From: a bacterium A37T11
GTDB lineage: Bacteria > Bacteroidota > Bacteroidia > Sphingobacteriales > Sphingobacteriaceae
Reading direction: 5' to 3'
Length of the DNA stretch: 40,837 nucleotides
NCBI GenBank assembly: GCA_900109895.1
Contig: FOBR01000030.1
Span: 1-40,837, forward strand
Below the pieces are notes generated by a model. That model was given only the letters and a program-made list of their open reading frames with translations. It was not told the origin of the DNA and did not search any database. Shown here in pieces: positions 1 through 22,757 of the stretch. The number at the start of each line of letters is the position of its first letter. The stretch's first letter is position 1. The position numbers and the translations under genes were made by a program.

Positions 1-303
1 ATTGCTGAATATAATAACTTAACGGACGAAGAAAGGATGTTGTACGATACGGAATTACAAAAGCGATGGGATAATCAAAATGCCCTGGATTTTAAATATG
101 AACAAGGTCGTCGTGAAGAACGTGCTAAGGCCGAACAGGAAATAGCCAAACTGAAAGCCCGAGCTGATAAAGCGGAAGTTGACAAGCAAAAAGCAGAAGC
201 TGAAAAACTGGAAACTGCCCGCAAAATGAAGAAAGCTGGTATATCCGTAGCGCAGGTTTGTGATTTTACTAGTTTACCACTTGATGTTGTGGAGAAACTT
301 TAA
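1..303 (+). CDS. Rpn family recombination-promoting nuclease / putative transposase, C-terminal part
   Basis: The reading frame is open from base 1, so the gene starts outside the window and only about 100 C-terminal residues are visible. The visible part is a highly charged coiled coil rich in Glu, Lys and Ala, followed by a short helical tail of the type KKAGISVAQVCDFTSLP that ends VVEKL. This coiled coil plus 'hydrophobic helix, then two short helices' tail is typical of the C-terminus of the PD-(D/E)XK Rpn/YhgA-like family, whose nuclease domain is N-terminal and therefore not seen here. Family knowledge: these proteins are DNA nucleases that promote RecA-independent recombination and are often found in accessory DNA. 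The catalytic residues lie outside the window, so activity cannot be judged. Confidence 0.75.
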   Translation: MAEYNNLTDEERMLYDTELQKRWDNQNALDFKYEQGRREERAKAEQEIAKLKARADKAEVDKQKAEAEKLETARKMKKAGISVAQVCDFTSLPLDVVEKL

Positions 304-449
304 GTATAATTTATATTCCTAATACAAATTGTCCGTTGTAAACAGACTCCAGCACAGAAAACAAAAGCCTGCCGTAATCAGCGCGTATGGCGTTTCGCGC
401 GAAAAAAACATACATGGCGGGAGTGCATCAAAGAAAAAAACCTTCAGTT

Positions 450-1115
450 ATGAAAATATCTACAATTTTTCAGCCATTCTCCTTACTAGCTGGTGTTATC
501 GTATTTTTAATTATTTCTTGTGGCAAAGAGGAAAAATCTATAGATGAGCAGCATGCCACCGCAAAATTAGCGGTTGTTGACGCGACTGCTACTTCGAATA
601 CTATTCCTTCGTCTATTCACATCGATGGGCTGGAAAACGGTTCCAACACGATTGACGTTTCAGAAGACCATATCAGCTATTCGGATATCCAGGCAGGGAC
701 GCGCTCTATTCAAATCGACAACTTTACTGATACCATCACTCTTACAGAAGGCAAACACCACTCGCTAATGGTATTTTCCTCAGACAGTGTGAGTCTGGTG
801 ATTGATGATTTTGATTCGGAAGCGCCTAAATACTCAAAAATCCGGTGGATGCTTACCGGTGATGATCCTATTCAATATCAAGTGGACTTTACTGTCGATT
901 CCACTTGGAAAAATCACGAATATCAATCATTCATACCCGTTGAGGGGAAAAAACAAGTTGGGGTCATTCTACGTAGGAATAATTTTGACCGAACCTTCCT
1001 AGCGCAATCAACTATATCTTTTGATGTCAAAAAGGTAGTTACCATGAAAATTGTCGTGTCTCCTGATAAACAGAGCTACACATTTGAGCCTCTTGTACAT
1101 GAGGTCATCGAATAG
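450..1115 (+). CDS. Hypothetical lipoprotein, possibly DUF4397-like
   Basis: A 221-residue protein. The ATG at 450 is preferred over the upstream in-frame ATG at 387 because it places a clean lipoprotein signal at the N-terminus: a hydrophobic stretch at residues 8-23 ending in the lipobox LIIS-C with the modified Cys at residue 24. The mature part is beta-rich, contains no further Cys and has repeated short strands. The segment from about residue 50 to 110 (SSIHIDGLENG, later QAGTRSIQI and TEGKHHSLMVF) resembles the DUF4397 beta-sandwich of Bacteroidota surface lipoproteins, but the match is weak. It stands alone on the plus strand, with a terminator-like hairpin about 150 bases downstream. 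Function unknown; the lipid anchor is the secure part of this call. Confidence 0.7.
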   Translation: MKISTIFQPFSLLAGVIVFLIISCGKEEKSIDEQHATAKLAVVDATATSNTIPSSIHIDGLENGSNTIDVSEDHISYSDIQAGTRSIQIDNFTDTITLTEGKHHSLMVFSSDSVSLVIDDFDSEAPKYSKIRWMLTGDDPIQYQVDFTVDSTWKNHEYQSFIPVEGKKQVGVILRRNNFDRTFLAQSTISFDVKKVVTMKIVVSPDKQSYTFEPLVHEVIE

Positions 1116-1123
1116 CTTTATAA

Positions 1124-1240
1124 AGTTCACTCATCAGAAATCTCTCCCGGCGCATTCCGGGAACACGCCATTCCGTTAGTGTAACGGAAGATTTTGTCAG
1201 AAAAGTACAGGCAGATTTAGCCAAGCAAAAGAAAAACTAA
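1124..1240 (+). pseudogene. Possible 3' end of a decayed gene
   Basis: A 38-codon frame, open directly after a stop at 1121 and without a start codon, ends in a coding-looking basic helix (TEDFVRKVQADLAKQKKN) followed about 30 bases later by a terminator-like hairpin. The composition fits the last exon-like remnant of a truncated gene. I do not recognise the family. It may also be chance. Confidence 0.2.
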
Positions 1241-1268
1241 GGTAAGTACACCTTATATATAATACAAA

Positions 1269-1299
1269 ACCATCAGCTTATTAAGCAGGTGGTTTTTTT
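1269..1299 (+). terminator. Probable rho-independent terminator
   Basis: Stem ACCA..GCTT against AAGC..TGGT with a 3x3 internal bulge and a three-base loop, followed by seven T. It would end transcripts coming from the lipoprotein region. Confidence 0.5.
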
Positions 1300-1442
1300 G
1301 GCACTTAGCCTGCATGGCCCACCAGGTAAATAATACATTACGGTATAAGATCTATGTTGATCACGCCTACCTAAGCTGTCTCAGCCATTCGGAATCCCAG
1401 AGATTGGCGGATGAAAACCGAATAAACTGAATGATAAATAAT

Positions 1443-1473
1443 TTAGTTTCGCACAACTGATATAATATTTTTG
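1443..1473 (+). promoter_or_regulatory. Candidate Bacteroidota promoter
   Basis: TATTTTTG at 1466-1473 fits the TAnnTTTG -7 element. A weak TTTAG sits about 19 bases upstream in place of TTTG. It lies 10 bases before the ATG of the 31-codon frame. Confidence 0.35.
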
Positions 1474-1483
1474 CATATTAACA

Positions 1484-1579
1484 ATGCATAAAACAATGAA
1501 GCAAGACTCATCTGAATACCTTAAAGATAGATTATTGGATGAAGATAAAGTGTACCCGCTAAAACTAAGAGTTCTGTGA
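1484..1579 (+). CDS. Possible 31-residue small protein or truncated gene
   Basis: ATG at 1484 (a second in-frame ATG at 1496) opens a frame with a charged, helix-prone product containing EYLKDRLLDEDKVYPLKL. It sits just behind a good -7 element and 52 bases before the DUF6934-like gene. The product looks like a real protein start cut off by a stop, so it may be either a genuine small protein or the 5' end of a broken gene. I do not recognise a family. Confidence 0.25.
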   Translation: MHKTMKQDSSEYLKDRLLDEDKVYPLKLRVL

Positions 1580-1631
1580 TTTAGAGAGAGATTTGGAAAA
1601 ATTGTAATTTGAAAGCAAATGTTAAAACTAT

Positions 1632-2183
1632 ATGATAAAAATTGACTTAAGTAATACACTGGAACCACTTTTTGTAAATAGGGAATTTACAGAATTCATA
1701 TTTCTTTCTGAACTTATTGATGGTTCTTCAAAAGAGCTGCATGTACTCATTAGCGAGCATCCCGATCCCTTATTGCCCAATGTTTACAATCTCGCTTTTG
1801 GCCCCTTAGGCGATGACGGGGAAATTGATGACCAGGCTATCATTAGCCATAAGAATGTAAATATCGTATTCTCGAGCATCCTGTTCTATGCCTATACCTT
1901 TTTGCTGGCTAATGAAGGAGAACCATTTAGTATGGGCGTAGATGGTTCCAATGAGACAAGGGCATACCTGTACCATCGAATGTTTAGCTACAACCAACAC
2001 GAATTGGCAGATGTTTTTTACATTGTTGGCGTAGACTGGTACGTTCGGTTGCTTCGCAACGGTAATGATATCGAGCGGGATGAACAAGGTTTTCCTTATT
2101 TCAAGCCAAGGCCGGAACCGTTTGACATAGCCCGGAAGCCCGCTGACATGTACCGTTATTACATGTTTTCGTTAAATCGTTAA
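1632..2183 (+). CDS. DUF6934-like hypothetical protein
   Basis: A 183-residue acidic, soluble protein without signal peptide or membrane segment. It starts MIKIDLSNTLEPLF and carries a central block of alternating hydrophobic strands (VYNLAFGPLGDDGEIDD) followed by helices (VFSSILFYAYTFLL) and a conserved-looking FYIVGVDWYVRLLR motif, ending in an aromatic tail (MYRYYMFSLNR). This outline matches the small Bacteroidota proteins I know as DUF6934, usually found with a short partner gene immediately downstream; here the partner begins 19 bases after the stop. The two-gene arrangement and accessory-DNA context are compatible with a toxin-antitoxin-like or other two-component cassette, but no catalytic motif is visible and no function is assigned. 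Confidence 0.7.
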   Translation: MIKIDLSNTLEPLFVNREFTEFIFLSELIDGSSKELHVLISEHPDPLLPNVYNLAFGPLGDDGEIDDQAIISHKNVNIVFSSILFYAYTFLLANEGEPFSMGVDGSNETRAYLYHRMFSYNQHELADVFYIVGVDWYVRLLRNGNDIERDEQGFPYFKPRPEPFDIARKPADMYRYYMFSLNR

Positions 2184-2198
2184 TATTTTATATCTTTG
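2168..2198 (+). promoter_or_regulatory. Bacteroidota promoter inside the end of the DUF6934-like gene
   Basis: TTCG at 2168-2171, exactly 19 bases, then TATCTTTG at 2191-2198. Transcription would start at about 2203-2205, at the ATG of the next gene, so the message would be leaderless or nearly so. Confidence 0.55.
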
Positions 2199-2202
2199 TA
2201 AT

Positions 2203-2394
2203 ATGAGACCAGTGATTCAACAAAAAATAGATGCTATCAAGGCTATTGCCAGGAATAGTGCTTCAACCGGTCATGAAGGGGCCAAAGCGCCCCGTGTGGT
2301 GAGTGATAACCTGTCAAAAGCCATACGCAATAAAAGGGATGCTGAAATATTCCAGAAAGAGTTGGAAGTTGCTTTCAGGCAGGCGAAGAAATAA
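2203..2394 (+). CDS. Small basic hypothetical protein, partner of the DUF6934-like gene
   Basis: A 63-residue, strongly basic, helical protein with no other in-frame Met to serve as start. The N-terminal half (VIQQKIDAIKAIARNSA) and C-terminal half (AIRNKRDAEIFQKELEVAF) each look like one amphipathic helix joined by a Gly/Pro linker. It begins 19 bases after the DUF6934-like gene and has its own promoter within that gene's 3' end. A basic, independently expressed small protein beside a larger acidic one is the usual outline of an antitoxin or binding partner, which remains inference. No known domain recognised. Confidence 0.6.
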   Translation: MRPVIQQKIDAIKAIARNSASTGHEGAKAPRVVSDNLSKAIRNKRDAEIFQKELEVAFRQAKK

Positions 2395-2552
2395 TTTTTT
2401 TGACACACATACAGAATGCCATACTCGCAACGGTTTGGCTTTTTTTATATCCTGAACTCCATTTTTGGCTTTGGAAGCCTTACTGCTGATGCCTTCCTTT
2501 TTGTTGCCGGCTTTGCGTTAATTTCCGGCAGGCCTTCCCTTCAAACAGAAAG
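2395..2552. other. Intergenic sequence, no supported gene
   Basis: An open frame at 2416-2601 on the plus strand has low-complexity, hydrophobic, Pro/Ser-rich content and lies antisense to the helix-turn-helix remnant, so it is not taken as a gene. Nothing else is visible. Confidence 0.5.
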
Positions 2553-2675
2553 TCAAAGGCCTCCGCTCACCACAATGTTTAGCGCTTTAGCCACAGCATA
2601 GACCTCTGCCGCAAACGGCCGGTTTTCCCCATGGTTGATCACGCCTAAGGTAGCTAATCGATTGACATCATTCAT
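2553..2675 (-). pseudogene. Remnant of a helix-turn-helix (XRE-like) gene
   Basis: Reading the minus strand from an ATG at 2675 gives 40 residues whose body (GENRPFAAEVYAVAKALNI) is the typical second half of an XRE/Cro-type helix-turn-helix: the 'E(N/R)G..RP' recognition-helix end, then the last helix 'YAVAKALNI'. The N-terminal helices and anything after the stop at 2553 are missing. The apparent start codon is supplied by the heptamer repeat at 2670-2704. The piece looks like a gene broken at a repeat, not a functional small protein. Confidence 0.4.
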
Positions 2676-2704
2676 AATTCATAATCCATCATTCATTATT
2701 CATT
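2670..2704. repeat. Heptamer tandem repeat, ATTCATA type
   Basis: Five consecutive 7-base units: ATTCATA, ATTCATA, ATCCATC, ATTCATT, ATTCATT. It lies between the helix-turn-helix remnant and the XRE gene and includes the XRE stop codon. Heptamer arrays of this kind are common between genes in Bacteroidota. Confidence 0.8.
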
Positions 2705-3080
2705 TCTCCCCCTCCCCTTTCTTCACCGGCTCCACCTTTATCACCTCCACCTTCTTTTCCTTAGAAGGCGTACCATCTTTCTTTAGTGCGGGTGTAATGC
2801 GCAGCGTGAGGCGCACCCAGTCGTGTTCGGGAGTAGGAAAATCAAATAGTTTAGATATAGATTTGTAGCCAAATGCTTTTGCAATAAGGGTTAAGTGCCG
2901 GATATTATATTTTTTAGAATGAAGGAATTGTTCAACATTCCCTACAAAACTTTTTGTCATTCCCATTTTAAGGCTTAACTCTTGCTGCGTAAACTTATTT
3001 CTCCTTAATTCTTTTACATGTAAAATGAGCTGATAATCTAATTCAGACATCTCAATATAAATCAATTCCTCCGTATTCAT
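2700..3080 (-). CDS. XRE-family helix-turn-helix transcriptional regulator
   Basis: A 126-residue DNA-binding protein. Residues about 17-80 form the helix-turn-helix fold: ELRRNKFTQQELSLKMGMT is the first helix plus the 'TQQELS' helix, KSFVGNVEQ the recognition helix, and NIRHLTLIAKAFGYKSISK the closing helices. The C-terminal 45 residues are basic and low in complexity (KKDGTPSKEKKVEVIKVEP), without a sensory domain. The start at 3080 is used; MSEL at residue 11 is an alternative. An 8 kDa repressor like this usually autoregulates and controls a divergent gene. A 14-base palindrome and a strong divergent promoter lie 39-75 bases upstream, but the target gene on the right is missing. Promoter and operator are described separately. 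Confidence 0.85.
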   Translation of the reverse strand: MNTEELIYIEMSELDYQLILHVKELRRNKFTQQELSLKMGMTKSFVGNVEQFLHSKKYNIRHLTLIAKAFGYKSISKLFDFPTPEHDWVRLTLRITPALKKDGTPSKEKKVEVIKVEPVKKGEGEK

Positions 3081-3118
3081 TTACAGATTTTTAAACATTG
3101 TTTTTAAAAATTTATTAC

Positions 3119-3132
3119 ACTCCATTTGGAGT
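3119..3132. promoter_or_regulatory. Probable XRE operator palindrome
   Basis: ACTCCATTTGGAGT: 6-base arms around two central bases. It overlaps the -33 element of the plus-strand promoter and lies 39 bases upstream of the XRE start, the expected position for a Cro/cI-type repressor site serving both directions. Confidence 0.55.
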
Positions 3133-3155
3133 ATTGAATAATTCTATTATCTTTG
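3125..3155 (+). promoter_or_regulatory. Near-consensus Bacteroidota promoter without a following gene
   Basis: TTTG at 3125-3128, 19 bases, TATCTTTG at 3148-3155. This is the best promoter match in the window. Transcription would start near 3160 and run rightward. The first ATG (3184) opens only eight codons, and no protein gene follows before 3754. Confidence 0.65.
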
Positions 3156-3326
3156 CATCATTAAGTCATACAATAGATTATATATGCACATAACAGACAC
3201 TAAAAACTAAGAATACATAGGGTCATTTTTGACCCCAAAGACATGCTTATTTCTCCCTAGCAAGGAGAGAACAAACGATGTCGCTCGCAACGAAACCGAC
3301 TAATTTTCCCGCGAGTTGACCGTGAG
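3156..3326. other. Intergenic stretch with a short palindrome
   Basis: No gene seen. It includes the perfect inverted repeat GGGTCA-TTTT-TGACCC at 3220-3235, which could be a regulator site or a small hairpin. Taken with 3327-3753, more than 670 bases between the XRE gene and the SusC gene carry no normal-sized gene. Confidence 0.5.
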
Positions 3327-3357
3327 TTCGCCCATTGGCCGGACATTCGTATCTTTG
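3327..3357 (+). promoter_or_regulatory. Promoter of locus A
   Basis: TTCG at 3327-3330, 19 bases, TATCTTTG at 3350-3357. Predicted start near 3364 leaves about 390 bases of untranslated leader before the SusC gene. Confidence 0.55.
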
Positions 3358-3363
3358 CCGATC

Positions 3364-3753
3364 AATTCCAGCCGGGCGCGCTTCACGTTTAGCTTTCGGG
3401 GAACCTCTCAAATTTCCGCCAGTTATTTGGGAGGAGGCTCTTTAGTCGGTGCCAGTTCGAAAGTGTGAAGCAACCCGCTGGTTTTGTTTTTGTAGGACCA
3501 AAACCAGCTGCTTTCCTTTCCCTGCATTCCTGCCTGCGTCGCGTTCTAAAACCAATTTAGACGATGGAAAAAAGCAATACCAAACACCCATTTATACCCA
3601 CAAAATCCTTCCAACCTGTTTCAAAGAACGTGATCTGCGCGCCCGAATGAGTACGCCATCGCTACCGGCTGCCTGTACCGTCGACTAAAACACCGCAGGC
3701 AGCCAATTTTCGTTCATTCATCCATTTTTTTAACTAAATGAATTCCCTAAAAA
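3364..3753 (+). promoter_or_regulatory. Long structured leader of the locus A transcript
   Basis: The leader carries two strong hairpins and a short frame. Hairpin 1 pairs CTGGTTTTG (3478-3486) perfectly with CAAAACCAG (3499-3507), extended by AAGCA (3468-3472) against TGCTT (3509-3513). Hairpin 2 pairs GGCTGCCTG (3667-3675) with CAGGCAGCC (3696-3704) and is followed by a T-rich run ending in seven T. Between them a 28-codon frame (3564-3650) could encode a leader peptide. This layout of short frame, then hairpin, then T-rich tract resembles attenuation, but no known riboswitch family was recognised. Confidence 0.4.
3564..3650 (+). CDS. Possible 28-residue leader peptide
   Basis: ATG at 3564 opens 28 codons with a Lys/Pro/Ser-rich product ending SKNVICAPE. 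It precedes the second leader hairpin by 16 bases. The coding value is uncertain; the interest lies in its position in the leader of the SusC gene. Confidence 0.2.
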   Translation: MEKSNTKHPFIPTKSFQPVSKNVICAPE

Positions 3754-6700
3754 ATGAAGGCAAAATTACCTTCTGGCATACTATTGCCCAAAAATATGCA
3801 TTTTTTGCTACAACCGCCAGTGCTTTTTACGATGGTAGTTATCTTTCTAGGCACGCATAGCTCCCAGGCGCAAACCACCCGACAGGACAGCCTGAAACTC
3901 AAACGTGACAGCACTCGAAAAAGCCTGCAGGATTCCATTTTCCAGCTAGATGAGGTGGAAGTGAGTACGGGTTATCAAACCCTGCCTAAGGAACGGGCAA
4001 CGGGGAGTTTTGAGGTGATTGATCAGAAGTTATTCAATCGTAACATCAGTACCAACGTCCTGGATAGACTGGACGGTTTGTTTGCTGGGGCAACTTTTGG
4101 CCTAAATAGCCGAAATCCGCTAAATGACCGACGCTATTTCTATCCATCTGAACCCTATATGATCCAGGTAAGGGGACAGAATACGTTCAATGGAGAATTC
4201 CGTCCCTTGATCGTGTTAGACGATGTGATCTACGAAGGAGACGTTCGAAACCTGAACCCAAATGATGTAAAAGAGATCTATTTATTAAAAGATGCCTCAG
4301 CTACATCAATTTGGGGTACTCGTGCAGGAAACGGTGTACTGGTGATCCGTACGAAAAGACCCGAAAGCGGGCAAGACACCCGGATCGGCCTAAGCAGCAA
4401 TTTCACGCTAACAGAAAAGCCGAATCTTTTTGCGTTACCTGAAATGAGCAGTAGCGATTTTATCGATTACGAACATTCGTTGTTCAACAGAGGTTACTAT
4501 GACAATACCATTAACGATACATGGAGCTATCCTACGATATCTCCGGTGGTGGAATTATTGGATAGGATTCGTAAACATACTCTTGACAGTGCGAAAACAT
4601 GGGAGCAGATCAATGCCTTTCGCCATATAGACGTCCGCAGTGATTATATGAAATACATTTATCGTCCTCAAATGCGACAGCAATATGCTATCGATCTAAG
4701 CGGAGGTACGCCGCAATCAGGTTACCTGATCTCGGCAGGCTTTGATAAAAACCTGAACCAGTTGGTTACTTCTGACGATCGGCGGCTCACGCTGCGCTCT
4801 GTGGTAAACTTACAGCCCCTTAAAAGGCTACAAATACAAAGCACGATCAGCTATGCCAAAAGCACGGCAAATAGTAATGGCACACAATCCCCTGTTGCCT
4901 ACGGCACCTTATATTCAGGAGGAGGCAAGACCTTTTGGCCGTACCTCCAATTAGCTGATGCCAATGGAAATCCGTTAGTGGTGGATGCAGTTACTTATCG
5001 AAAATCTTATCGGGACTCAGCAGGATATGGACATTTACTTAATTGGGATTATATTCCGCTAAAAGAACTTGATAAGAATAAGGAAGTAGCCAACCTGCAG
5101 GACTTACTTTTGAATGTAAGTGCCAATTACCGTTTTGGGGCATCTTGGACAGTTAAGGCCAATTATGCTTATGAACTTACCAATACGCAGATTGAAGACT
5201 GGACAGGATTAGGCTCCTATGCCATGAGAGAAACTATCAATATCTACAGCCAATGGAACAGCCGGGCGGTGACTAAAAGACCCATACCACTGGGGGACCA
5301 AATAAACTATCTTTATGAAAAGATCAAAGCAAGTACGTTCCGCATGCAGGTAAACTTTGAGCAGGAGTGGGATAGTCAACACCAACTTTCGGCTATTGCT
5401 GGTGCAGAACGTCGTGAAACCTCAACTACTCAGAACGGCTATACTATGTATGGGTATAACTGGGATAACCTAAGCTACCAGCCTGTTGATTTTGCAGGCA
5501 CCTATCCACTGCTAAATATGCCATATGGTGGCCAACGTATCAATAACTCATCAGAGTTCTTTATGGAAAGCCTGTTGGACCGCTACCTATCGGCTTATGC
5601 AAATGCGGCATATACCTACCATAGGCGTTATACGATTTCAGCTAGTGGTCGTCAGGACGCTTCTAACATTTTTGGCCAGCATAGCAACCAGCGCTGGACG
5701 CCTCTTTGGTCATCTGGGTTGGCTTGGAAGCTAAGCGATGAGGATTTTTATCACTGCGGCCTACTGCCTTACCTCAAATTACGGATGACTTATGGGTACA
5801 GCGGCCAATCCGTAAATTCTCAATCAGCCATTCCCGTTATTTATCATCAAGGCAGCAGCTTCCTGACGGGTCTGCCCTATGCCAGCATTACCTCACCGCC
5901 AAATCCTGGTTTGCGCTGGCAAAAGACCGGCATCTTAAATGCCGGAATTGATTTCAACAGCAGGAACAACCGCTTAAGCGGGAGTGTAGAGTGGTACACT
6001 AAACATGCCGTTGATCTCATCAGCCAGGGGCCAACAGACCCCACTACAGGCTTTAGCTCCGTTACGCTCAACAGCGCAAGCATAACTGGACACGGCTTGG
6101 ATATCACGCTAAATAGTAACAATATCAAAAACAAATTCTTCGATTGGCAAAGCGCCATACTTTTCAACTATAACAAAGATGTAGTTAAAAAATATTATTA
6201 TAAGCCTTCTTATGCCCGCGATTACGTCTATTCAGGTACAACGGTTAATCCTGTGAAAGGCAAGGATCTTCGGGCGCTTTTCGCCTTTCCGTTTGCCGGC
6301 CTTGAGCATGAGACCGGTGATCCTCTGGGCTACCTAAACGGTGAAATCAGTAAAAATTACAGGAGTATGCTGCTCGGACCCATGGAAAATCTAAAATACA
6401 TGGGATCAAGCATCCCACTCAGTAATGCTACACTACGCAATACGTTTACCTATAGGAAACTCAGCCTGTCATTCAGCATACAGGCAAAACTAGGCTATTC
6501 ATTTTTCAGGGAAGGTTTCAACGATTACGCTGCTGCGGTGTATTGGGATGGGCATAAAGATTATGCTACACGCTGGCAGCAACCCGGCGATGAAGCGTTT
6601 ACCAATGTTCCTTCCGTCGCCTATCCACTGAATTATTACCGCAGCGAGTTTTACAAAAAATCGGATGCCCTGGTGGTGAAGGGCGATCACATCCGTGTGC

Positions 6701-6885
6701 AGGACATCGCTTTATCCTATATGATTGACGATATACCCTATATCAGATCCCTACAGATCAATGCGTATATAAATAACCTGAATATATTGTTATGGCGGGC
6801 AAATAAACTTGGGATCGACCCGGTATATGGAGATGCTTTACCCGCGCCCAGAACATTTTCCATGGGTATACATGCTAACTTTTAA
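3754..6885 (+). CDS. SusC/RagA-family TonB-dependent outer-membrane transporter (locus A), no STN domain
   Basis: A 1043-residue transporter that would import a substrate captured by the SusD lipoprotein encoded 11 bases downstream, driven by TonB. After a signal peptide (residues 15-40, ending SSQAQ; Met15 is an alternative start) comes a short charged linker and a TonB-box-like DEVEVSTGY at about 67-75. The plug domain follows at roughly 75-205, with the SusC hallmarks PLIVLDDVIYEGD and LKDASATSIWGTRAGNGV, and the rest is the beta-barrel ending in aromatic FSMGIHANF. Both the STN domain and the carboxypeptidase-D-like domain usual in this family are absent, making it shorter than the SusC proteins of loci C and D. 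That agrees with the lack of a sigma/FecR pair here. Plug and barrel resemble the locus B transporter more than those of C or D. Confidence 0.93.
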   Translation: MKAKLPSGILLPKNMHFLLQPPVLFTMVVIFLGTHSSQAQTTRQDSLKLKRDSTRKSLQDSIFQLDEVEVSTGYQTLPKERATGSFEVIDQKLFNRNISTNVLDRLDGLFAGATFGLNSRNPLNDRRYFYPSEPYMIQVRGQNTFNGEFRPLIVLDDVIYEGDVRNLNPNDVKEIYLLKDASATSIWGTRAGNGVLVIRTKRPESGQDTRIGLSSNFTLTEKPNLFALPEMSSSDFIDYEHSLFNRGYYDNTINDTWSYPTISPVVELLDRIRKHTLDSAKTWEQINAFRHIDVRSDYMKYIYRPQMRQQYAIDLSGGTPQSGYLISAGFDKNLNQLVTSDDRRLTLRSVVNLQPLKRLQIQSTISYAKSTANSNGTQSPVAYGTLYSGGGKTFWPYLQLADANGNPLVVDAVTYRKSYRDSAGYGHLLNWDYIPLKELDKNKEVANLQDLLLNVSANYRFGASWTVKANYAYELTNTQIEDWTGLGSYAMRETINIYSQWNSRAVTKRPIPLGDQINYLYEKIKASTFRMQVNFEQEWDSQHQLSAIAGAERRETSTTQNGYTMYGYNWDNLSYQPVDFAGTYPLLNMPYGGQRINNSSEFFMESLLDRYLSAYANAAYTYHRRYTISASGRQDASNIFGQHSNQRWTPLWSSGLAWKLSDEDFYHCGLLPYLKLRMTYGYSGQSVNSQSAIPVIYHQGSSFLTGLPYASITSPPNPGLRWQKTGILNAGIDFNSRNNRLSGSVEWYTKHAVDLISQGPTDPTTGFSSVTLNSASITGHGLDITLNSNNIKNKFFDWQSAILFNYNKDVVKKYYYKPSYARDYVYSGTTVNPVKGKDLRALFAFPFAGLEHETGDPLGYLNGEISKNYRSMLLGPMENLKYMGSSIPLSNATLRNTFTYRKLSLSFSIQAKLGYSFFREGFNDYAAAVYWDGHKDYATRWQQPGDEAFTNVPSVAYPLNYYRSEFYKKSDALVVKGDHIRVQDIALSYMIDDIPYIRSLQINAYINNLNILLWRANKLGIDPVYGDALPAPRTFSMGIHANF

Positions 6886-6896
6886 TACGTGAACAG

Positions 6897-8267
6897 ATGA
6901 GAAAATATTTTAAAAAACTAATTAAACCCGGGTTGTTTGCAATTACAGCATGCTTACTATATTCTTGCGACCGATATCTGGAAGCCAAACCCGACAAAAA
7001 AATGGCAGAACCTATTAGCTTGGATGATTGCGATGAATTATTGGACAACGATAACGAAATGAATACCTGCTTCCCTGCCGTAGGAGAAGCGGCAGCAGAT
7101 GATTATTACCTTAGTTTAGTAAACTGGGAAGCGATCACCATAAATGAAGACCGGCTTAACTATCATTGGGATGCTGGTTTTACAGCTCAGCTTAACCAAT
7201 GGCAGTTGCCATATAAGGCGGTCATGTTAGCAAACCAGGTATTGCAGACATTGAGTAAAATCAACCGGTCAACTGATACTGAACGCTACGATCGTATCAG
7301 AGGAAGTGCTCTTTTTTTTAGAGGTTATGCATTCTTTTATATTGCGCAGGTGTTTGCAGCAGCCTACGATATCGGGCAGGCTACCAGTCTGCCAGGAATA
7401 CCCCTGAGGCTCAGCCCGGATATTGATTACCCGTCAGAACGGGGAACACTTGAAAATACCTATATCCAGATCTTAAACGACTTGCAGGAGGCTGCCAGCT
7501 TACTGCCGGCTATTTCGGCCGTTCCGACCCGTCCATCCAGGCCCGCTGCCTACGCAGCTTTGGCCCGTACTTACCTTAATACAGGCGACTACATTAAAGC
7601 AGGCGAGTCGGCGGCGCGTGCCCTGCAAGATAAGGCAAGCCTGTTGGATTACAGTCAACTTGATAGTAATTCCACAGCACCTTTTGTAAAGTTTAATAAA
7701 GAAGTCATATTCCAAGCCTCCACAGGTGGCAACACTGCTTTGGAAACTAGCCGGGCTTGTATGGATAGTATATTATACGAAAGCTACGACAATCACGACC
7801 TACGCAAACATTTATTTTTTAGTAGAAATGGTGACGGCAGTCATGCATTTAAAGGAAAATACGATGCACAGATCAATGCTTCTCCATTTTCAGGTATAGC
7901 AATAGATGAACTATACCTCATCAGGGCTGAATCAGCCGCTAGGCAGGGAGAAATAGGGCCGGCTTTGGAAGACCTGAACACCTTATTAAAAAACCGTTGG
8001 GACAAGGGTCATTTTATCCCTTTGACAGCTATGGATGAAATTGATGCATTGGAACTTGTTCTTAGGGAAAGAAGGAAAGAACTGGTGTTACGAAATCTAC
8101 GCTGGACTGATCTGCGCAGGTTGAACCAACAACCCCGATTTGCCAAAACATTAACGAGGATATTGGCCGGCCAACGTTATGTGCTTCCACCCAATGACAC
8201 GCGATATACCCTTCTGATCCCACAAGAAGTGATCCTGAATAGTACTATAACTCAAAACCCCCGTTAA
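6897..8267 (+). CDS. SusD/RagB-family surface lipoprotein (locus A)
   Basis: A 456-residue substrate-binding lipoprotein that caps the SusC pore. The signal ends in the lipobox CLLYS-C at about residue 24. Early in the mature part is the phrase LDDCDELLDNDNEMN, shared in form with the locus B SusD (LQKLLDNDVVMN). The TPR-like helical core includes QLPYKAVMLANQVLQTL and RGSALFFRGYAFFYIAQVF. The C-terminus has the family signature RERRKELVLRNLRWTDLRRL (about residues 388-407). It is shorter than glycan-type SusD proteins (500-600 residues). It starts 11 bases after the SusC stop and ends two bases before the thioredoxin gene, so the three are co-transcribed. Confidence 0.92.
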   Translation: MRKYFKKLIKPGLFAITACLLYSCDRYLEAKPDKKMAEPISLDDCDELLDNDNEMNTCFPAVGEAAADDYYLSLVNWEAITINEDRLNYHWDAGFTAQLNQWQLPYKAVMLANQVLQTLSKINRSTDTERYDRIRGSALFFRGYAFFYIAQVFAAAYDIGQATSLPGIPLRLSPDIDYPSERGTLENTYIQILNDLQEAASLLPAISAVPTRPSRPAAYAALARTYLNTGDYIKAGESAARALQDKASLLDYSQLDSNSTAPFVKFNKEVIFQASTGGNTALETSRACMDSILYESYDNHDLRKHLFFSRNGDGSHAFKGKYDAQINASPFSGIAIDELYLIRAESAARQGEIGPALEDLNTLLKNRWDKGHFIPLTAMDEIDALELVLRERRKELVLRNLRWTDLRRLNQQPRFAKTLTRILAGQRYVLPPNDTRYTLLIPQEVILNSTITQNPR

Positions 8268-8269
8268 AC

Positions 8270-9454
8270 ATGATTCAGCTTTTTAAACATATCGTAAGAT
8301 ACTTGTTATTTGTTTTTATGTCAATTACTCACCTGAACGCACAAAAAATAGGTGCTGTCATTCCGGAATTTAAAGAACTTCGAAGTCTGCATAAGCAGTT
8401 AATCATCCTGGAATTCTTTGACCTGACATGCAGCAATTGTATTTTTGGTGTTCCAAAACTCAATGCACTCCAAAAACAATTTAGCAATCGGATAGCCATA
8501 ATAATGGTAACCCAAACACCCCAAAAAGAAATCACTTATTTCTTTTCAAGAAACAAATATACAAAGAACAATAGGCTACAAATATTGGCAAATGACCGTC
8601 ATTTATCTGCATATTTTAAGCACCGGACTGTACCCCATGTTGCGTGGATAAAAAATAATGAACTGAAAGGGATAACAGAGGGGGAGTTTATTTCGGAAGA
8701 GTATATTCAGGCTATGTTGGACAATCCCAATGTAAAAATGCCTCTGAAAGATGATTTTAGAAATTATGACTATACTCAGGGCATTCATGACCAAGATACT
8801 ATAAACTCTGTTTATTCGTATCTTAGTGGCTATAAAGATGAGGCAAATCGAAAATACGGGATAGACACCTTGTTACTTAGACATAGTGTACGTGATTATA
8901 TGATTAATGTACCCGTAACCGGGTCCTACCTGTATGCATTTATGAAACTAAGAAAGTTACCTTTCATGAAACCAGCCAGGATATTCGTTGAGTCGGGAGA
9001 CCCCACGGCTTTTGTAAGGCCAGAGGAAATGCCTGAGGCATTGTGGGCACAGAAGTATGACCTATGTTATGAATCGGTACTTCCGGATAGTCTTACCGAA
9101 AAACAACGTATGGAGACCCTGATCAGGGACCTAAATAATAAGCTACGGTTGGATGTCCGGATAGAAAAACGTCCTATCCTATGTTTGGTTATCCGAGAGA
9201 CGGGAATACCATTGCCCGCTAGTGAATATTCCATCAAAGAATGGACAAATCAACCTCTGGAAGACTTTATATTTTTACTGGACATCAATCAGCAGAATAG
9301 TCTCCCCGTAATAAATTTTTCTAAACACCCTAAAAATATTTATATCCATGCCTGGAAAGGGGAGGAAGAGTTAAAAAATATGCTAAAAATAAATGGTCTA
9401 TCTATCCAGAAAGAAGTGCAGGAAACGGAGGTAATGGTTATCGGGAGGCAATAA
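8270..9454 (+). CDS. Thioredoxin-like (TlpA-type) protein with DUF3738-like C-terminal domain (locus A)
   Basis: A 394-residue exported protein. A hydrophobic signal (about 8-24) precedes a thioredoxin fold with the active-site motif C54-S-N-C57 in EFFDLTCSNCIFGVPKLNAL and the cis-Pro region HRTVPHVAWI. Residues from about 170 on match the outline of DUF3738/TIGR03435: a strand-helix block near 195-240, then LNNKLRLDVRIEKRPILCLV and the end LKINGLSIQKEVQETEVMVI. The C-terminal domain is of unknown function. The protein would act in the periplasm or at the outer face, reducing or rearranging disulfides. It follows the SusD gene by two bases. The same domain fusion is found in locus C (19500-20825), also behind a SusC/SusD pair. 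Confidence 0.85.
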   Translation: MIQLFKHIVRYLLFVFMSITHLNAQKIGAVIPEFKELRSLHKQLIILEFFDLTCSNCIFGVPKLNALQKQFSNRIAIIMVTQTPQKEITYFFSRNKYTKNNRLQILANDRHLSAYFKHRTVPHVAWIKNNELKGITEGEFISEEYIQAMLDNPNVKMPLKDDFRNYDYTQGIHDQDTINSVYSYLSGYKDEANRKYGIDTLLLRHSVRDYMINVPVTGSYLYAFMKLRKLPFMKPARIFVESGDPTAFVRPEEMPEALWAQKYDLCYESVLPDSLTEKQRMETLIRDLNNKLRLDVRIEKRPILCLVIRETGIPLPASEYSIKEWTNQPLEDFIFLLDINQQNSLPVINFSKHPKNIYIHAWKGEEELKNMLKINGLSIQKEVQETEVMVIGRQ

Positions 9455-9467
9455 TTATGGCAACAAA

Positions 9468-9493
9468 CCCGGCCGGATTAAACACCGGCCGGG
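9468..9493. terminator. Strong hairpin between convergent genes
   Basis: Perfect 9-base stem CCCGGCCGG / CCGGCCGGG with an 8-base loop, 13 bases after the thioredoxin gene and 32 bases from the end of the convergent peptide gene. There is no long T-run on either side, but its position suits a bidirectional terminator. Confidence 0.6.
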
Positions 9494-9525
9494 CTATTAA
9501 ATCCTTCGTCAAGGAGTAATAGAGG

Positions 9526-9744
9526 CTAAGATTTTAGTCTCACATTTGTAGTACTGGTGTGCGTATTTAACGCCTGCAGCATTTCGTTTTTTAATGCATC
9601 AGTAAGGTTTGGATCTCCCGAGCCACTTGCAGTCGTTTGAACCGCACAAATCTGTGAATTTCCAGAACACGACGGGGACGAATTTACTGAATAGCTGCTT
9701 GGGTCAGCTGGTGCTGAGGGAACATCTAATTGAAACCATGCCAT
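9526..9744 (-). CDS. 72-residue peptide with C-x6-C pair, family undescribed
   Basis: The ATG at 9744 is chosen because AAAGGAGG lies 10 bases upstream, an unusually strong Shine-Dalgarno for this phylum. An in-frame ATG at 9792 would add 16 residues that repeat the N-terminal pattern (MAWYQ, then MAWFQ). The product starts MAWFQLDVPSAPADP and has no signal peptide. A Ser/Pro-rich middle holds Cys26 and Cys33 (SCSGNSQICAVQ), followed by a Gly/Ser linker and a helical C-terminus (LTDALKNEMLQALN) ending NVRLKS. The sequence type is familiar from unannotated short Bacteroidota proteins near SusC/SusD/thioredoxin genes, but I know no function. Modified or secreted peptide, pheromone-like signal, or cargo model of the neighbouring transporter are all possible; none is shown. 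Confidence 0.65.
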   Translation of the reverse strand: MAWFQLDVPSAPADPSSYSVNSSPSCSGNSQICAVQTTASGSGDPNLTDALKNEMLQALNTHTSTTNVRLKS

Positions 9745-9831
9745 AACTTTAATACCTCCTTTCTTTTTATAAAATTTTTGATACCAGGCCATTTTAGAAG
9801 CTTCTTTTCAATCGTGATTTTTGCCTTGTTT

Positions 9832-9863
9832 CAATACTATAAAGGTCGGCACAATCGGTCGAA
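9832..9863 (-). promoter_or_regulatory. Candidate promoter of the Cys-peptide gene
   Basis: On the minus strand TTCG (9863-9860), 20 bases, TAGTATTG (9839-9832), one mismatch from TAnnTTTG. A start near 9826 leaves an 80-base leader that includes the strong ribosome-binding site. Confidence 0.35.
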
Positions 9864-9889
9864 TAATAAAATAAAAGTTCGTATAAAAC

Positions 9890-10004
9890 TAACATTTTCA
9901 ACACATTAACCTAACATTATTTTTTGAAGTTTTCATCATTTTTATTCGCAGATTTTACCATTCTTTTTAACAAATTCTAACACTATTTTTAACAGTTTTT
10001 ACCA
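9890..10004. promoter_or_regulatory. Helically phased T-tract and TAACA array
   Basis: In the 340-base gap between two divergent small genes, T-runs of 4-6 bases are centred near 9922, 9931, 9941, 9954, 9966, 9988 and 9998, about one helical turn apart with one turn skipped. Interleaved are TACCA 9956, TAACA 9968, TAACA 9978, TAACA 9990 and TACCA 10000 (steps 12, 10, 12, 10), with more TAACA-like words at 9890, 9899, 9907 and 9912. Such phasing predicts intrinsically curved DNA and could also be a cooperative binding array. Confidence 0.5.
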
Positions 10005-10069
10005 TATTTACTTAAAACCTTCGTTTATTGCGTTTCATGCATACCAAGCGTTCTCTTCATCACGCACTA

Positions 10070-10100
10070 TTGACATAAATTCTTGATTTTGTTAAGTTTG
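10070..10100 (+). promoter_or_regulatory. Promoter of the 66-residue gene
   Basis: ATTG ending at 10072, 20 bases, TAAGTTTG at 10093-10100. The predicted start near 10106 leaves a short leader before the ATG at 10131. Confidence 0.55.
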
Positions 10101-10121
10101 AATTATAAAACATAACTTAAC
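10091..10121. promoter_or_regulatory. Inverted repeat over the promoter, candidate operator
   Basis: GTTAAGTT (10091-10098) and AACTTAAC (10114-10121) are exact inverse copies separated by 15 bases. The left arm covers the -7 element, the right arm falls just after the predicted start, so a bound dimer would block transcription. Confidence 0.5.
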
Positions 10122-10130
10122 AATTTCATT

Positions 10131-10331
10131 ATGAACAACATGAATAACCCACTTTTTATCTACCCGGAAGATGTAGTGCTTCTCGAACGGCGAAGTATAC
10201 GCTATGCACAAGCACTGCTTCAAACCATCCGCGCCACCAATGGCAAGCTAAAACACCAGGGAACTACTGTGGCAGAATATGCCGCCTACAAAGGCATCCC
10301 CGAGGAAGAGGTACGAAAAAGGCTTGCATAA
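10131..10331 (+). CDS. Small hypothetical protein, possibly helix-turn-helix-like
   Basis: A 66-residue soluble protein (second in-frame ATG at 10140). It contains SIRYAQALLQTIRATNGKLK followed by TTVAEYAAYKGIPEEEVRK, an arrangement of two helical hairpins. The pattern 'helix with R-S-x-R-x-A-Q, G-K-x-x-x-Q, T-V-x-E-Y-x-x-Y, I-P-E-E-E-V' is familiar from short Bacteroidota proteins thought to be DNA-binding; this is inference. It is the only gene on its transcript, bounded by its own promoter with an inverted repeat on the left and a strong terminator on the right, a layout that would suit autoregulation. It converges with the Crp-like gene. Confidence 0.65.
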   Translation: MNNMNNPLFIYPEDVVLLERRSIRYAQALLQTIRATNGKLKHQGTTVAEYAAYKGIPEEEVRKRLA

Positions 10332-10367
10332 AAAAAGGTCCGCGCGCTTTTCGCGGACCTTTTTTTA
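10331..10367. terminator. Strong bidirectional rho-independent terminator
   Basis: Stem GGTCCGCG (10337-10344) / CGCGGACC (10352-10359), flanked by an A-run on the left and a T-run on the right. It would end the 66-residue gene on the plus strand and the Crp-like gene of the locus B operon on the minus strand. Confidence 0.9.
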
Positions 10368-10388
10368 CTTAAAAATGTTAGGTAGCTG

Positions 10389-10967
10389 TCAATCCACATC
10401 CGGCAGGTACTGCCTGGACATATCCAGGTAAGAGGCCAGTTCCTCGTTGGTTAAACTATGAAACAGACCCTTTGAATAAGTATCCCGAAAAAACTGCATC
10501 TTCTCCTTTCGGTTCCGCACCGAAAGGATCCACAACCGTTCCTTCAGGTAACTAATTTCCTGCCGCTGAAATTCCTGCAACAACAGGTTTGCCTGCCAAA
10601 ACTGGTCGCAAAGTAATTTTAGGTTCGCAGGGCTCATTCCATAAAGAACACTCGGCACTACCGCTACTAAGTTGTACGCGGCGCGCAGGCCAACTTTAAT
10701 TTCTAAACAGTTTATTAACCAGCTGCCCTTTTCCATCACCCGAATTACCTTTTTATGGCCCCGTTCATGCGTTTGATATCCCAAACTGTAACCACTCATT
10801 TGCCAGTAATGATGGGTCAAAAGCTGCCCTTTACGGAACAGGTATTCCTTTGGGTTCAGCTCAAACCGATCCAGCATGGATGCAAACACTTCTCTAAAGC
10901 CCGGTACCAGCTGGCAAAGCGCATGCATGCGGCTTAGGAATTCGGGGTAAAATGGGTCGTTTTGCAT
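10389..10967 (-). CDS. Crp/Fnr-family transcriptional regulator, divergent
   Basis: A 192-residue protein with the Bacteroidota Crp/Fnr outline. The N-terminal half is a cupin-like beta-roll (NPKEYLFRKGQLLTHHYW, then SLGYQTHERGHKKVIRVMEKGSW), followed by a long dimer helix (LLCDQFWQANLLLQEFQRQE) and a C-terminal helix-turn-helix (LTNEELASYLDMSRQYL, about residues 172-188). The phosphate-binding residues of true cAMP sensors are not evident, so its ligand is unknown. The chain stops shortly after the recognition helix, leaving almost no wing, shorter than usual. It lies 34 bases after the small secreted protein gene, so it is probably the last gene of the locus B operon, and may feed back on it. 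Confidence 0.8.
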   Translation of the reverse strand: MQNDPFYPEFLSRMHALCQLVPGFREVFASMLDRFELNPKEYLFRKGQLLTHHYWQMSGYSLGYQTHERGHKKVIRVMEKGSWLINCLEIKVGLRAAYNLVAVVPSVLYGMSPANLKLLCDQFWQANLLLQEFQRQEISYLKERLWILSVRNRKEKMQFFRDTYSKGLFHSLTNEELASYLDMSRQYLPDVD

Positions 10968-11001
10968 ATATTTAATGGCTTTTCTTTTTTTGCTTTAAGA
11001 C

Positions 11002-11304
11002 CTAATATTCATAAGGGCCCCAATAGGATTGTAAAAAATAACCATCCGGATAATATCTCCACGGGCTAACAGATGTATCCAGGTGATAGGCCGTATACTC
11101 CGCATAATAGGGCCGTTCATAGGGGCCAATCGGAACGGTCGGTAAAGTTGTGGGTGGCAAGGCGGTCACATATTCCACCTCCCAGAGATAATTATAAGGA
11201 AAAAAATAGGTTATTGTTGCAGGTGCCTGGGTACTTTTGGCAGGGTGCGACGAGGAATTGGGTGGCAAAAATAAGACGGATAAACAAAAGATGATTTTTT
11301 TCAT
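11002..11304 (-). CDS. Aromatic-rich small secreted protein
   Basis: A 100-residue protein with a signal peptide (MKKIIFCLSVLFLPPNSSSH; cleavage about residue 18-22). The mature part of about 80 residues holds 15 Tyr, 3 Trp and many Pro and no Cys, in short repeats such as GPYERPYYAEYTAY, SPWRYYPDGYF and YWGPYEY. Nothing in it resembles an enzyme. It begins 21 bases after the locus B SusD gene and precedes the Crp-like gene, so it is an operon member. Stacked Tyr/Trp/Pro suggests carbohydrate or aromatic-ligand binding, adhesion, or a structural role on the cell surface. Not a family I recognise. Confidence 0.75.
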   Translation of the reverse strand: MKKIIFCLSVLFLPPNSSSHPAKSTQAPATITYFFPYNYLWEVEYVTALPPTTLPTVPIGPYERPYYAEYTAYHLDTSVSPWRYYPDGYFLQSYWGPYEY

Positions 11305-11325
11305 GATACTTGATTTTTATGATTG

Positions 11326-12693
11326 TTAATGGAATGAATTTAAGGTCACGTCTGACGGTATGGGCCAAGTATAGCTTTCAGAATTGGGCAACAACGTGTA
11401 CGTTTTATCCTGGTAAATATGGGTGACCACGATGTGACGGCCTTCCGCATTTAACCGCCGCAGATCCATCCACCGCAGGCCCCGGCCATAAAGCTCTTTT
11501 TCCCGTTCCTGCAGAATAACGGTTAGCAGGGAGTCTGCTTGCTCGCGGAGTTTGGATAGGTACTCAGTTCCTTTATAGCGGTATTGCAGTAGTTTTTGCA
11601 AGGTGATCCTGGCTTCTGCCACCTCCCCCATCCTCGCCTCGCATTCGGCTTTGACCAAGTACTGTTCATCGGTAGCGAGCCCGGCAAAGAAAGCGGCGGT
11701 GCCCAGGTAGCTTCCGATAAATTGATACCCGTCCTTACCTGCAGTTTTATAAAACAGCGATTTCCGCAGATCATCCGGTGTATAACTATTTACCAGTTGC
11801 GGATTGACAGCTGCCTGCAAGGGTGATACGATCAGCACGGCATAATAAATGATCTCCGGGTTGGGCAGACTAAAGGCATAGGTGATCTTTGTGGATGTTT
11901 GCTTTTCGTTAAAGTTGATAACCTCACTGGTGATCTCCAGGCAGCGGCTGGCATAGAACCTTGCGTTTTCTATATTACCCAGACACAGGTACACCCGGCT
12001 CAGCAAGGCATAGACGGCTGCCTTGGAAGGCCTGGTTTTATAATAGGCGGTATCTGGCAGTAGTTTTTCTGCCTGGAACAGGTCATCCAAAATAAAGGTA
12101 TAGGTATCCTTCAGGCTGGCACGGTAGAGCGGCTCCTGGATATCACTGGTTTTTCTTAAGGGAATGCCAAGGTCTGGTTCTGCGGTTTGCAGGTGGTAAG
12201 GGCCGGCAAATACCTGGGCAAGCGAAAAATGCAGGAAGGCCCGGTGAAATAACGCCCCGCCCTTAACTGTGTTGTACTGCGTGCGCTCTGATTCGTTAAT
12301 TTTTAGTTGGGCAAGACCGTCCAGTACGGTGTTGGCATACAATATGGCCCGGTAGGGCAAATCCCATTCGGCCGTGGTATGGCCCTGAAAGGGGTCGTCA
12401 CCCCAAATAAATTGCTGGATCGCTGCTTTTCCCAATGTGCTGCTGCTGGCTGTGGGAAAGGTGACCTCATCTGTTCCTGATACGGCCAGCGAGGGTAACA
12501 GCCCTCCGGAGCCGGTGTTGCTGCCGTTCATCACCACGTCATTGTCCAGTAGCTTTTGCAGGTCGTTCAGACTGCGGGGTACTTGCAGGCTTAGGTCGGG
12601 CAGCGTGGTTAAGAAGGGTTCCTTACCGCAACTGGTCAACAGGAACCACCCGCTTATTATTACCTGTAAAAATTGGCTTTTAATGTGTTCCAT
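11326..12693 (-). CDS. SusD/RagB-family surface lipoprotein (locus B)
   Basis: A 455-residue partner of the SusC encoded 12 bases upstream. The lipoprotein signal ends FLLTS-C at residue 22. The mature start contains SLQVPRSLNDLQKLLDND, and the helical core includes WDLPYRAILYANTVLDGL and GGALFHRAFLHFSLAQVF, almost the same phrases as in the locus A SusD. The family signature near the C-terminus is QEREKELYGRGLRWMDLRRL. Length and motifs put it with the short SusD proteins, so A and B probably handle related cargo. Confidence 0.92.
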   Translation of the reverse strand: MEHIKSQFLQVIISGWFLLTSCGKEPFLTTLPDLSLQVPRSLNDLQKLLDNDVVMNGSNTGSGGLLPSLAVSGTDEVTFPTASSSTLGKAAIQQFIWGDDPFQGHTTAEWDLPYRAILYANTVLDGLAQLKINESERTQYNTVKGGALFHRAFLHFSLAQVFAGPYHLQTAEPDLGIPLRKTSDIQEPLYRASLKDTYTFILDDLFQAEKLLPDTAYYKTRPSKAAVYALLSRVYLCLGNIENARFYASRCLEITSEVINFNEKQTSTKITYAFSLPNPEIIYYAVLIVSPLQAAVNPQLVNSYTPDDLRKSLFYKTAGKDGYQFIGSYLGTAAFFAGLATDEQYLVKAECEARMGEVAEARITLQKLLQYRYKGTEYLSKLREQADSLLTVILQEREKELYGRGLRWMDLRRLNAEGRHIVVTHIYQDKTYTLLPNSESYTWPIPSDVTLNSFH

Positions 12694-12705
12694 CCGCTAA
12701 TCCGG

Positions 12706-21286: not shown

Positions 21287-21291
21287 GTCTA

Positions 21292-22740: not shown

Positions 22741-22757
22741 CTGGTAAGGATTTATGT

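Follow-up and report, generated by a model that had tools for sequence, protein, structure and literature searches.

A cysteine-pair mini-protein gene convergent with SusC–SusD–thioredoxin operons recurs as a module in Sphingobacteriaceae

In a 40,837-nucleotide stretch of the genome of bacterium A37T11 (Bacteroidota; Sphingobacteriaceae; contig FOBR01000030.1 of assembly GCA_900109895.1), hereafter the window, we studied a locus at which a SusC–SusD (SusCD) outer-membrane transporter adjoins a thioredoxin-like protein and a gene for a small peptide with two cysteines. Three genes lie on the forward strand: a SusC/RagA TonB-dependent outer-membrane transporter (3754..6885, 1043 residues), a SusD/RagB surface lipoprotein (6897..8267, 456 residues, with an LLYSC lipobox recognised by eye) and a putative ResA/TlpA-like thioredoxin whose C-terminal domain is of unassigned role (8270..9454, 394 residues), separated by gaps of 11 and 2 bases. 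On the reverse strand, tail to tail with this operon, a leaderless gene (9526..9744) encodes a 72-residue peptide beginning MAWFQ and bearing a cysteine pair, C26-x6-C33. The original prediction, made from the letters alone, had described just this packing and convergence, and the coordinates, the intact CSNC active site of the thioredoxin (residues 54–57) and the absence of glycan enzymes all held on re-examination, the last in a Pfam scan of the six proteins of 3754–10967, where no carbohydrate-active enzyme was found and the locus does not qualify as a polysaccharide utilisation locus. The transporter is a SusC/RagA protein by the curated model TIGR04056 (379 bits, cut-off 368.25), and PF07715, the Plug domain, was the sole Pfam model reported for it at E<=1 (29.3 bits, cut-off 23.9); its partner belongs to the SusD/RagB family by PF14322 (E 2.5e-32; 113.1 bits, gathering score 27) and also matches PF07980 (E 2.9e-6; 27.6 bits, gathering score 23.1).

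The single match of the thioredoxin protein itself is to PF00085, at E 0.025 and 15 bits, below the cut-off of 23.5. A profile made from 19 of its relatives matches ResA structures (best 4nmu, E 4.1e-15), and other thioredoxin structures, with the 60 of its 77 matches listed all inside profile positions 22–176; the window thioredoxin has 31 further matches in the same genome at E<=0.01. The C-terminal domain had been called DUF3738-like. For the window protein this name is not borne out, as neither PF12543 (DUF3738) nor TIGR03435 matches it at E<=1, and it survives for the relatives in weakened form: five of the 19 aligned sequences match PF12543 at E<=0.1 (best 1.8e-5) and two match TIGR03435 (best 9.1e-6), which weakly suggests a DUF3738 character at the level of the family, through some paralogues. 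Elsewhere in the window, at 19500–22761 and beside a FecR-type SusCD, a second thioredoxin protein (DUF3738 at 17.3 bits, cut-off 22) accompanies a protein with a DsbD N-terminal domain.

When the proteins of the A37T11 genome were searched with the window peptide, we recovered the peptide itself and one weak match (E 0.4), the latter convergent with an adjoining second thioredoxin gene. The neighbourhoods of the thioredoxin genes in this genome contain further small genes, tail to tail with SusC–SusD–thioredoxin operons, whose products have a signal peptide, an aromatic residue and a C-x5-8-C pair. Across relatives the signature is W...C-x5-8-C, and only the tryptophan and the two cysteines are invariant in a profile of 31 sequences (A3); a homologue of the window peptide is encoded in Parapedobacter defluvii (locus L018; 64% in the best segment), and the peptide locus L039 of genome G056, from the same family as A37T11, reads identically to it. 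With profile A2, the A37T11 genome gave 19 matches at E<=10 (weakest 0.035), all of them convergent with SusD or thioredoxin, including four (C58, C59, C10 and C50) that had no part in building the profile. When 60 further genomes from this family were searched, A2 found 16 places in 16 genomes, and among the 11 of these matches outside the profile's construction, nine face SusD or thioredoxin and two (L158 and L162) do not. Profile A3, with at most 16–19 candidates scored per genome, matched 139 of 250 genomes of the order at E<=0.001; in 296 genomes drawn from the phylum it matched five, of which three, A37T11 included, are from the same family. As seen by this profile, the peptide family thus appears to be centred on Sphingobacteriaceae; both matches outside the family (L233 and L234) show a MauE–peptide layout facing thioredoxin. 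A profile of the peptide family found no match at E<=1 among Protein Data Bank sequences, and the window peptide none at E<=0.01 in plasmid and phage collections.

The association with the operon was then assessed at places chosen with the neighbours unseen: 40 from the order-level A3 list, 20 in which the match began at about profile position 17–33 and 20 in which it began at the start. An open reading frame (ORF) for the peptide was recovered at 39 of these. Every one of the 39 has a convergent SusD or thioredoxin gene no more than 3.5 kb away; the distance is at most 300 bp for 36 and at most 100 bp for 34, and its median is 64 bp. At the fortieth place (L197, 7020–7241), a leaderless peptide about 60 bp from a convergent thioredoxin gene is encoded with ATC at the start codon, possibly a non-canonical start and possibly decay. 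The neighbourhood, stem-loop and co-divergence counts took 71 of 75 loci, leaving aside this one, which has no standard start, and L036, L037 and L132, which have long N-terminal extensions and are not in A3. The original prediction had named the lack of the peptide gene near such operons in other genomes as grounds for its refutation. That refutation failed, with 39 of 39 recovered ORFs in this first sample and, in a second one biased towards arrays and discussed below, with 14 of 20 places. The window locus is one instance of a recurrent module in which a cysteine-pair mini-protein accompanies SusC–SusD and, usually, a thioredoxin.

Within the A37T11 genome, the peptide also separates two kinds of SusCD locus. 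Where a SusC record has a thioredoxin, the peptide is present in 19 of 22 records without FecR and in none of the eight with FecR (Fisher p 2.8e-5); among the records without a thioredoxin, the figures are 1 of 39 and 0 of 26. The count covers 95 records, two of them doubled and several cut by the ends of the stretches (e.g., C11:276, C12:131000 and C27:34002), so that a FecR gene may lie outside; the last two are among the three exceptions lacking the peptide, and the third, C10:10175, was probably credited with the thioredoxin of the next operon. The profile used was partly built from loci of this genome, and neither the FecR contrast nor the four new matches are circular in that way. As a rule, mutual exclusion with FecR was rejected: it holds in this genome and is broken elsewhere, by sigma–FecR pairs beside leaderless cassettes (L203 and L206) and by L296 and L297.

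Two types of peptide can be told apart: a hydrophobic N-terminal signal is present in most relatives, whereas at 21 loci, the window's included, the encoded protein begins directly with the mature domain (MAWF...). We set the leaderless class by hand (window, L018 and L193–L212), a hydropathy rule having misfiled L023, L134 and L228 as leaderless. In 28 of 33 leaderless ORFs, even the longest possible reading frame starts no more than nine residues from the aromatic pair, although two of these 28 (the window and L198:6229) count only through an aromatic pair in a short upstream extension. The type is no rarity of two species, an idea that the order-level searches ruled out: a leaderless profile matched 61 of 250 genomes at E<=1e-6, some of the matches being signal-type relatives, with up to 18 matches per genome (G303; 16 in G233 and 14 in G241), often in tandem arrays. 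Diverged leaderless arrays of up to seven peptides were seen at L198:6229–9292, L212:5720–7599, L294–L297, L307 and L309, and single members carry extra cysteines (7 in ORF L198:9059 and 11 in ORF L212:7324). The two types also differ in company. A gene for the disulfide factor MauE, identified by PF07291 above the cut-off in all five cases tested and by a PC-x-C motif, lies upstream on the peptide strand in 30 of 50 signal-type versus 2 of 21 leaderless loci (Fisher p 7.5e-5; 22 of 36 versus 2 of 21 with long loci only, p 2.0e-4), and the window peptide has none in the 3.5 kb ahead of it. The convergent gene closest to the peptide encodes thioredoxin in 21 of 21 leaderless versus 16 of 50 signal-type loci; in other signal-type loci it encodes SusD, the thioredoxin gene sometimes standing first in the operon. 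The leaderless type is tied to one SusD clade: a single change accounts for it on a tree of 74 SusD proteins (SH-aLRT 94, quick search).

Peptide and operon diverge together. Relatives of the peptide are under purifying selection, with a ratio of nonsynonymous to synonymous substitution rates (dN/dS) of 0.07–0.28 in the seven pairs, of eight, for which it was computable; dS is near saturation in several and saturated for the pair of the window and L018. SusD, SusC and thioredoxin, where computable, fall in a similar range (0.06–0.27). The nearest neighbour of a peptide agrees with that of its SusD in 18 of 65 loci (shuffle mean 1.0, maximum 6) and with that of its SusC in 21 of 56 (shuffle mean 1.0, maximum 7). 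Mantel correlations are 0.25–0.34 across all loci and 0.65–0.66 in the leaderless set; an earlier test of this type on 30 loci had given 0.15, with 27 of 2000 shuffles as high. Peptide and operon travel and diverge as a co-inherited unit, within which no physical partner is singled out.

Other features surround the peptide gene of the window. A perfect 9-bp G+C inverted repeat with an 8-nt loop lies between both stop codons (9468..9493, no strand); it is possibly a shared terminator of the convergent genes, although a terminator scan of this interval found none by its own rule. Ahead of the peptide start at 9744, a Shine–Dalgarno-like element, AAAGGAGG (9755..9762, reverse strand), is common to L018, L019 and L155, the last two being signal-peptide relatives. 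Among 164 ORFs of 200 residues or more in the stretches of this genome, none has AGGAGG in the 20 nt ahead of its longest start. The element is not general among the peptides: a script found it in 3 of 33 leaderless and 4 of 52 signal-type genes, having missed the window's own because it took an upstream ATG there. Many cassette peptides have a short stem-loop ending about 6–12 nt before the ATG, with stems that differ yet pair (TGCTTTT/AAAAGCA, TGGCTT/AAGCCA and CTTTTTTTC/GAAAAAAAG) and a loop that is often TGATYTAT; we saw it in L021, L147, L149, L150, L152, L162, L198, L209, L211, L212, L213, L231 and L232. Stems with p<=0.05, including some further upstream, precede 24.7% of 85 peptides versus 6.3% of 317 control ORFs, and the window peptide has no such upstream stem-loop (p 0.83). 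An Rfam scan of window positions 1–12700 gave nothing reaching gathering scores.

Upstream of the peptide and in the same orientation lies a CRP/FNR-like regulator gene (10389..10967, reverse strand; PF00027 at E 9.9e-5, below the cut-off), and CRP-like genes hold this position in 9 of 21 leaderless and 17 of 50 signal-type loci. A helix-turn-helix (XRE-like) regulator (2700..3080, reverse strand; PF01381 at E 0.0012, below the cut-off) is divergent from SusC and is a possible part of the module. A different helix-turn-helix family sits upstream of SusC in L018 and several cassettes of the A37T11 genome, and phmmer found no link between that family and the window protein. At 11002–11304 of the window, directly after the SusD of the neighbouring FecR-type SusCD, an aromatic-rich protein of 100 residues with a signal-like start has no family match. 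At L025:10763–11233 and six other loci (7 of 57), a protein of about 140 residues is encoded on the peptide strand, about 1.4 kb upstream; the L025 copy has no Pfam match at E<=0.01.

The module resembles several known systems in part. Its SusC and SusD are adjacent, co-oriented and, by curated models, members of the SusCD/RagAB importers, but the window locus lacks both glycan and peptide enzymes and a FecR/sigma pair and has a cysteine-pair peptide and a thioredoxin instead. The Pfam family nearest to the peptide family is DUF6520 (PF20130), also small proteins with a signal-like start: all 11 DUF6520 loci over the cut-off have a MauE neighbour, and the small gene there faces a convergent gene, an S9 oligopeptidase in four of the four loci tested among those 11. 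At E<=0.5, nine of the 31 family peptides match PF20130 (best E 3.2e-4), and L260, with a 22.2-bit match, combines a CRP-like gene, MauE and the peptide facing SusD. None of the family's peptides was seen above the 25.4-bit cut-off, the window peptide shows no match at E<=1, and where DUF6520 loci have an S9 peptidase on the convergent side, the window family has SusCD. Astexin-type lasso clusters make their own peptide and carry their own TonB-dependent receptor and an S9-like isopeptidase. In the window family no lasso enzymes are recognised, and SusCD and thioredoxin take the place of receptor and isopeptidase. Bufferins (DUF2282 and others) are small cysteine proteins, many with signal peptides, clustered with a DoxX gene, but are modified by MNIO enzymes, and the portion of the source cited here does not mention SusCD (PMC12452194); no MNIO (DUF692) was recognised among the recurrent neighbours of 57 loci, which were grouped by similarity clusters only, with no MNIO model run. 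Candidates for ribosomally synthesised and post-translationally modified peptides in Streptomyces likewise have MauE next to a small cysteine-bearing precursor, but they belong to another phylum, their precursors have at least 8 cysteines and SusCD is unmentioned in the cited part of that work (PMC7794033). The SusCD and the thioredoxin, together with the lack of a recognised recurrent modifying enzyme, set the module apart from both. Searches of an open-access library gave no paper on DUF6520, NVEALA or DUF3738; the papers on MauE with SusC and SusD were unrelated by their titles, and among the other records listed, judged from titles and the starts of abstracts, nothing described a SusCD–thioredoxin–cysteine-peptide module.

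The original prediction had proposed import or surface processing of a disulfide-containing or metal-thiolate cargo, or peptide signalling. The coupling on which it drew recurs across numerous genomes, and MauE, encoded beside many of the relatives, strengthens the thiol theme; the data make no choice among imported cargo, surface processing, a signal and a metal ligand. We tentatively favour, with somewhat less than even confidence, the explanation that each SusCD takes its own mini-protein as cognate ligand or cargo and that the thioredoxin handles the disulfide of that mini-protein, and we do so because SusCD, a transporter class for glycans and peptides, and the S9 partners can both handle peptides. 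The mini-protein would leave the cytoplasm, through Sec in the signal type and by an unspecified route, perhaps lysis or vesicles, in the leaderless type of the window; its cysteines would either form an intramolecular C-x6-C disulfide, made by MauE in those loci that have it, or bind a ligand through their thiolates. SusD would then capture it, SusC with TonB would pull it in, and the thioredoxin would reduce it in the periplasm for release or degradation. Such a molecule would not be a nutrient taken from the surroundings; it might act as a ligand for scavenging, as a signal among kin or as a public good.

Several results weigh against this explanation. The chief problem is the missing leader of the window's peptide type: with no signal peptide, the window peptide lacks an export route, which complicates any simple story of a secreted cargo and had gone unmentioned in the original prediction. 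The co-divergence is as strong with thioredoxin (nearest-neighbour agreement in 16 of 52 loci, rho 0.34) as with SusD or SusC, and therefore marks a co-inherited unit, not a binding partner; in the signal set, moreover, the Mantel correlations are 0.05–0.08 and not significant (for SusD 0.05, with 508 of 2000 shuffles as high). Convergence also has its exceptions. In the second sample, 20 places from the leaderless-profile search chosen towards arrays and weaker matches, 14 face a thioredoxin/SusD operon (in four cases across an additional gene), two (L296 and L297) lie upstream of sigma–FecR–SusCD and four stand in another context; relatives without a convergent SusCD are L158, L162, L298, L305, L306 and L310. 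In the A37T11 genome, the peptide gene at C8:82851 (L134), a further profile match, overlaps a SusC fragment of 206 residues beside a short thioredoxin-like gene, and therefore not every peptide copy has an intact transporter. The S9 parallel was drawn from S9-looking loci only; L259 has another downstream gene, and the convergent side of L252 fell outside the test. AlphaFold models of the thioredoxin and the peptide, each made with one relative only, were poor (pLDDT 39.0 and 46.4).

Other explanations must be weighed against the same observations. The main rival, which we consider unlikely but far from negligible, makes the peptide a regulator or accessory subunit of SusCD (a plug, a lid factor or an expression signal) that replaces the FecR/sigma circuit. 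A leaderless cytoplasmic form would fit a regulator, the FecR-type and peptide-type SusCD–thioredoxin loci of the A37T11 genome are mutually exclusive (0 of 8 against 19 of 22), and a regulator gene often lies upstream of the peptide gene, either CRP-like, at the frequencies given above, or, in 9 of 57 loci, from an AraC-like family of which one member was tested. The exclusion is not general, however: sigma–FecR pairs adjoin leaderless cassettes, and the L296 and L297 peptides themselves sit upstream of sigma–FecR–SusC. Arrays of five to seven diverged copies would be odd for a subunit, and both the signal peptides and MauE suggest a place outside the cytoplasm. A second rival, to which we assign a rather low probability, has the peptide relay electrons or buffer thiols between MauE and thioredoxin while SusCD imports another, disulfide-rich nutrient. 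The co-occurrence of MauE, a cysteine-pair protein and a ResA/TlpA-like thioredoxin speaks for it, but the leaderless type keeps the thioredoxin (21 of 21) without an export signal and with MauE in 2 of 21 loci only, and beyond the tryptophan and two cysteines the sequence has diverged strongly, and in step with the operon, as that of a generic electron carrier would not.

Diversified arrays with some cysteine-rich members (the ORFs of 7 and 11 cysteines in L198 and L212) are also what one might expect if the module made an antagonistic or metal-binding ribosomal peptide, akin to a bacteriocin or metallophore, which SusCD then recovers, and MauE homologues have been proposed, in the part of the Streptomyces study cited, to modify precursors of at least 8 cysteines (PMC7794033). 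We find this slightly less probable again, as no modifying enzyme, exporter or immunity gene was recognised among the families recurring in at least 4 of 57 loci, several of which are unnamed and some of which were run against models. The sole C39-type exporter, named by eye in L036, adjoins a different small gene: at L036:1715–4810, next to the cassette, an apparent double-glycine bacteriocin gene stands beside a C39-peptidase ABC exporter, and we rejected this exporter as a route for cysteine-pair peptides since it seems tied to that separate gene. The least probable reading, by a little, is that SusCD is an ordinary scavenger of peptides and that the small gene linked to it has an unrelated function. 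RagAB-type SusCD systems are implicated in the uptake of proteins and peptides, and the lack of glycan enzymes at the locus agrees with this, but convergence in 39 of 39 cases and co-divergence across genera are hard to explain by linkage alone.

SusCD pairs are the main nutrient gates of Bacteroidota, and to our knowledge no substrate is known for most pairs that come without glycan enzymes. More broadly, Sphingobacteriaceae might match diversified, self-made cysteine-pair peptides to private SusCD–thioredoxin importers in a many-channel exchange of peptides across the outer membrane, for signalling, kin recognition or metal capture; we regard this wider picture as doubtful. If members of this class carry the gene of a candidate ligand alongside, the question of substrate would become directly testable for up to about twenty transporters per genome, and a new system by which cells exchange peptides may come to light.

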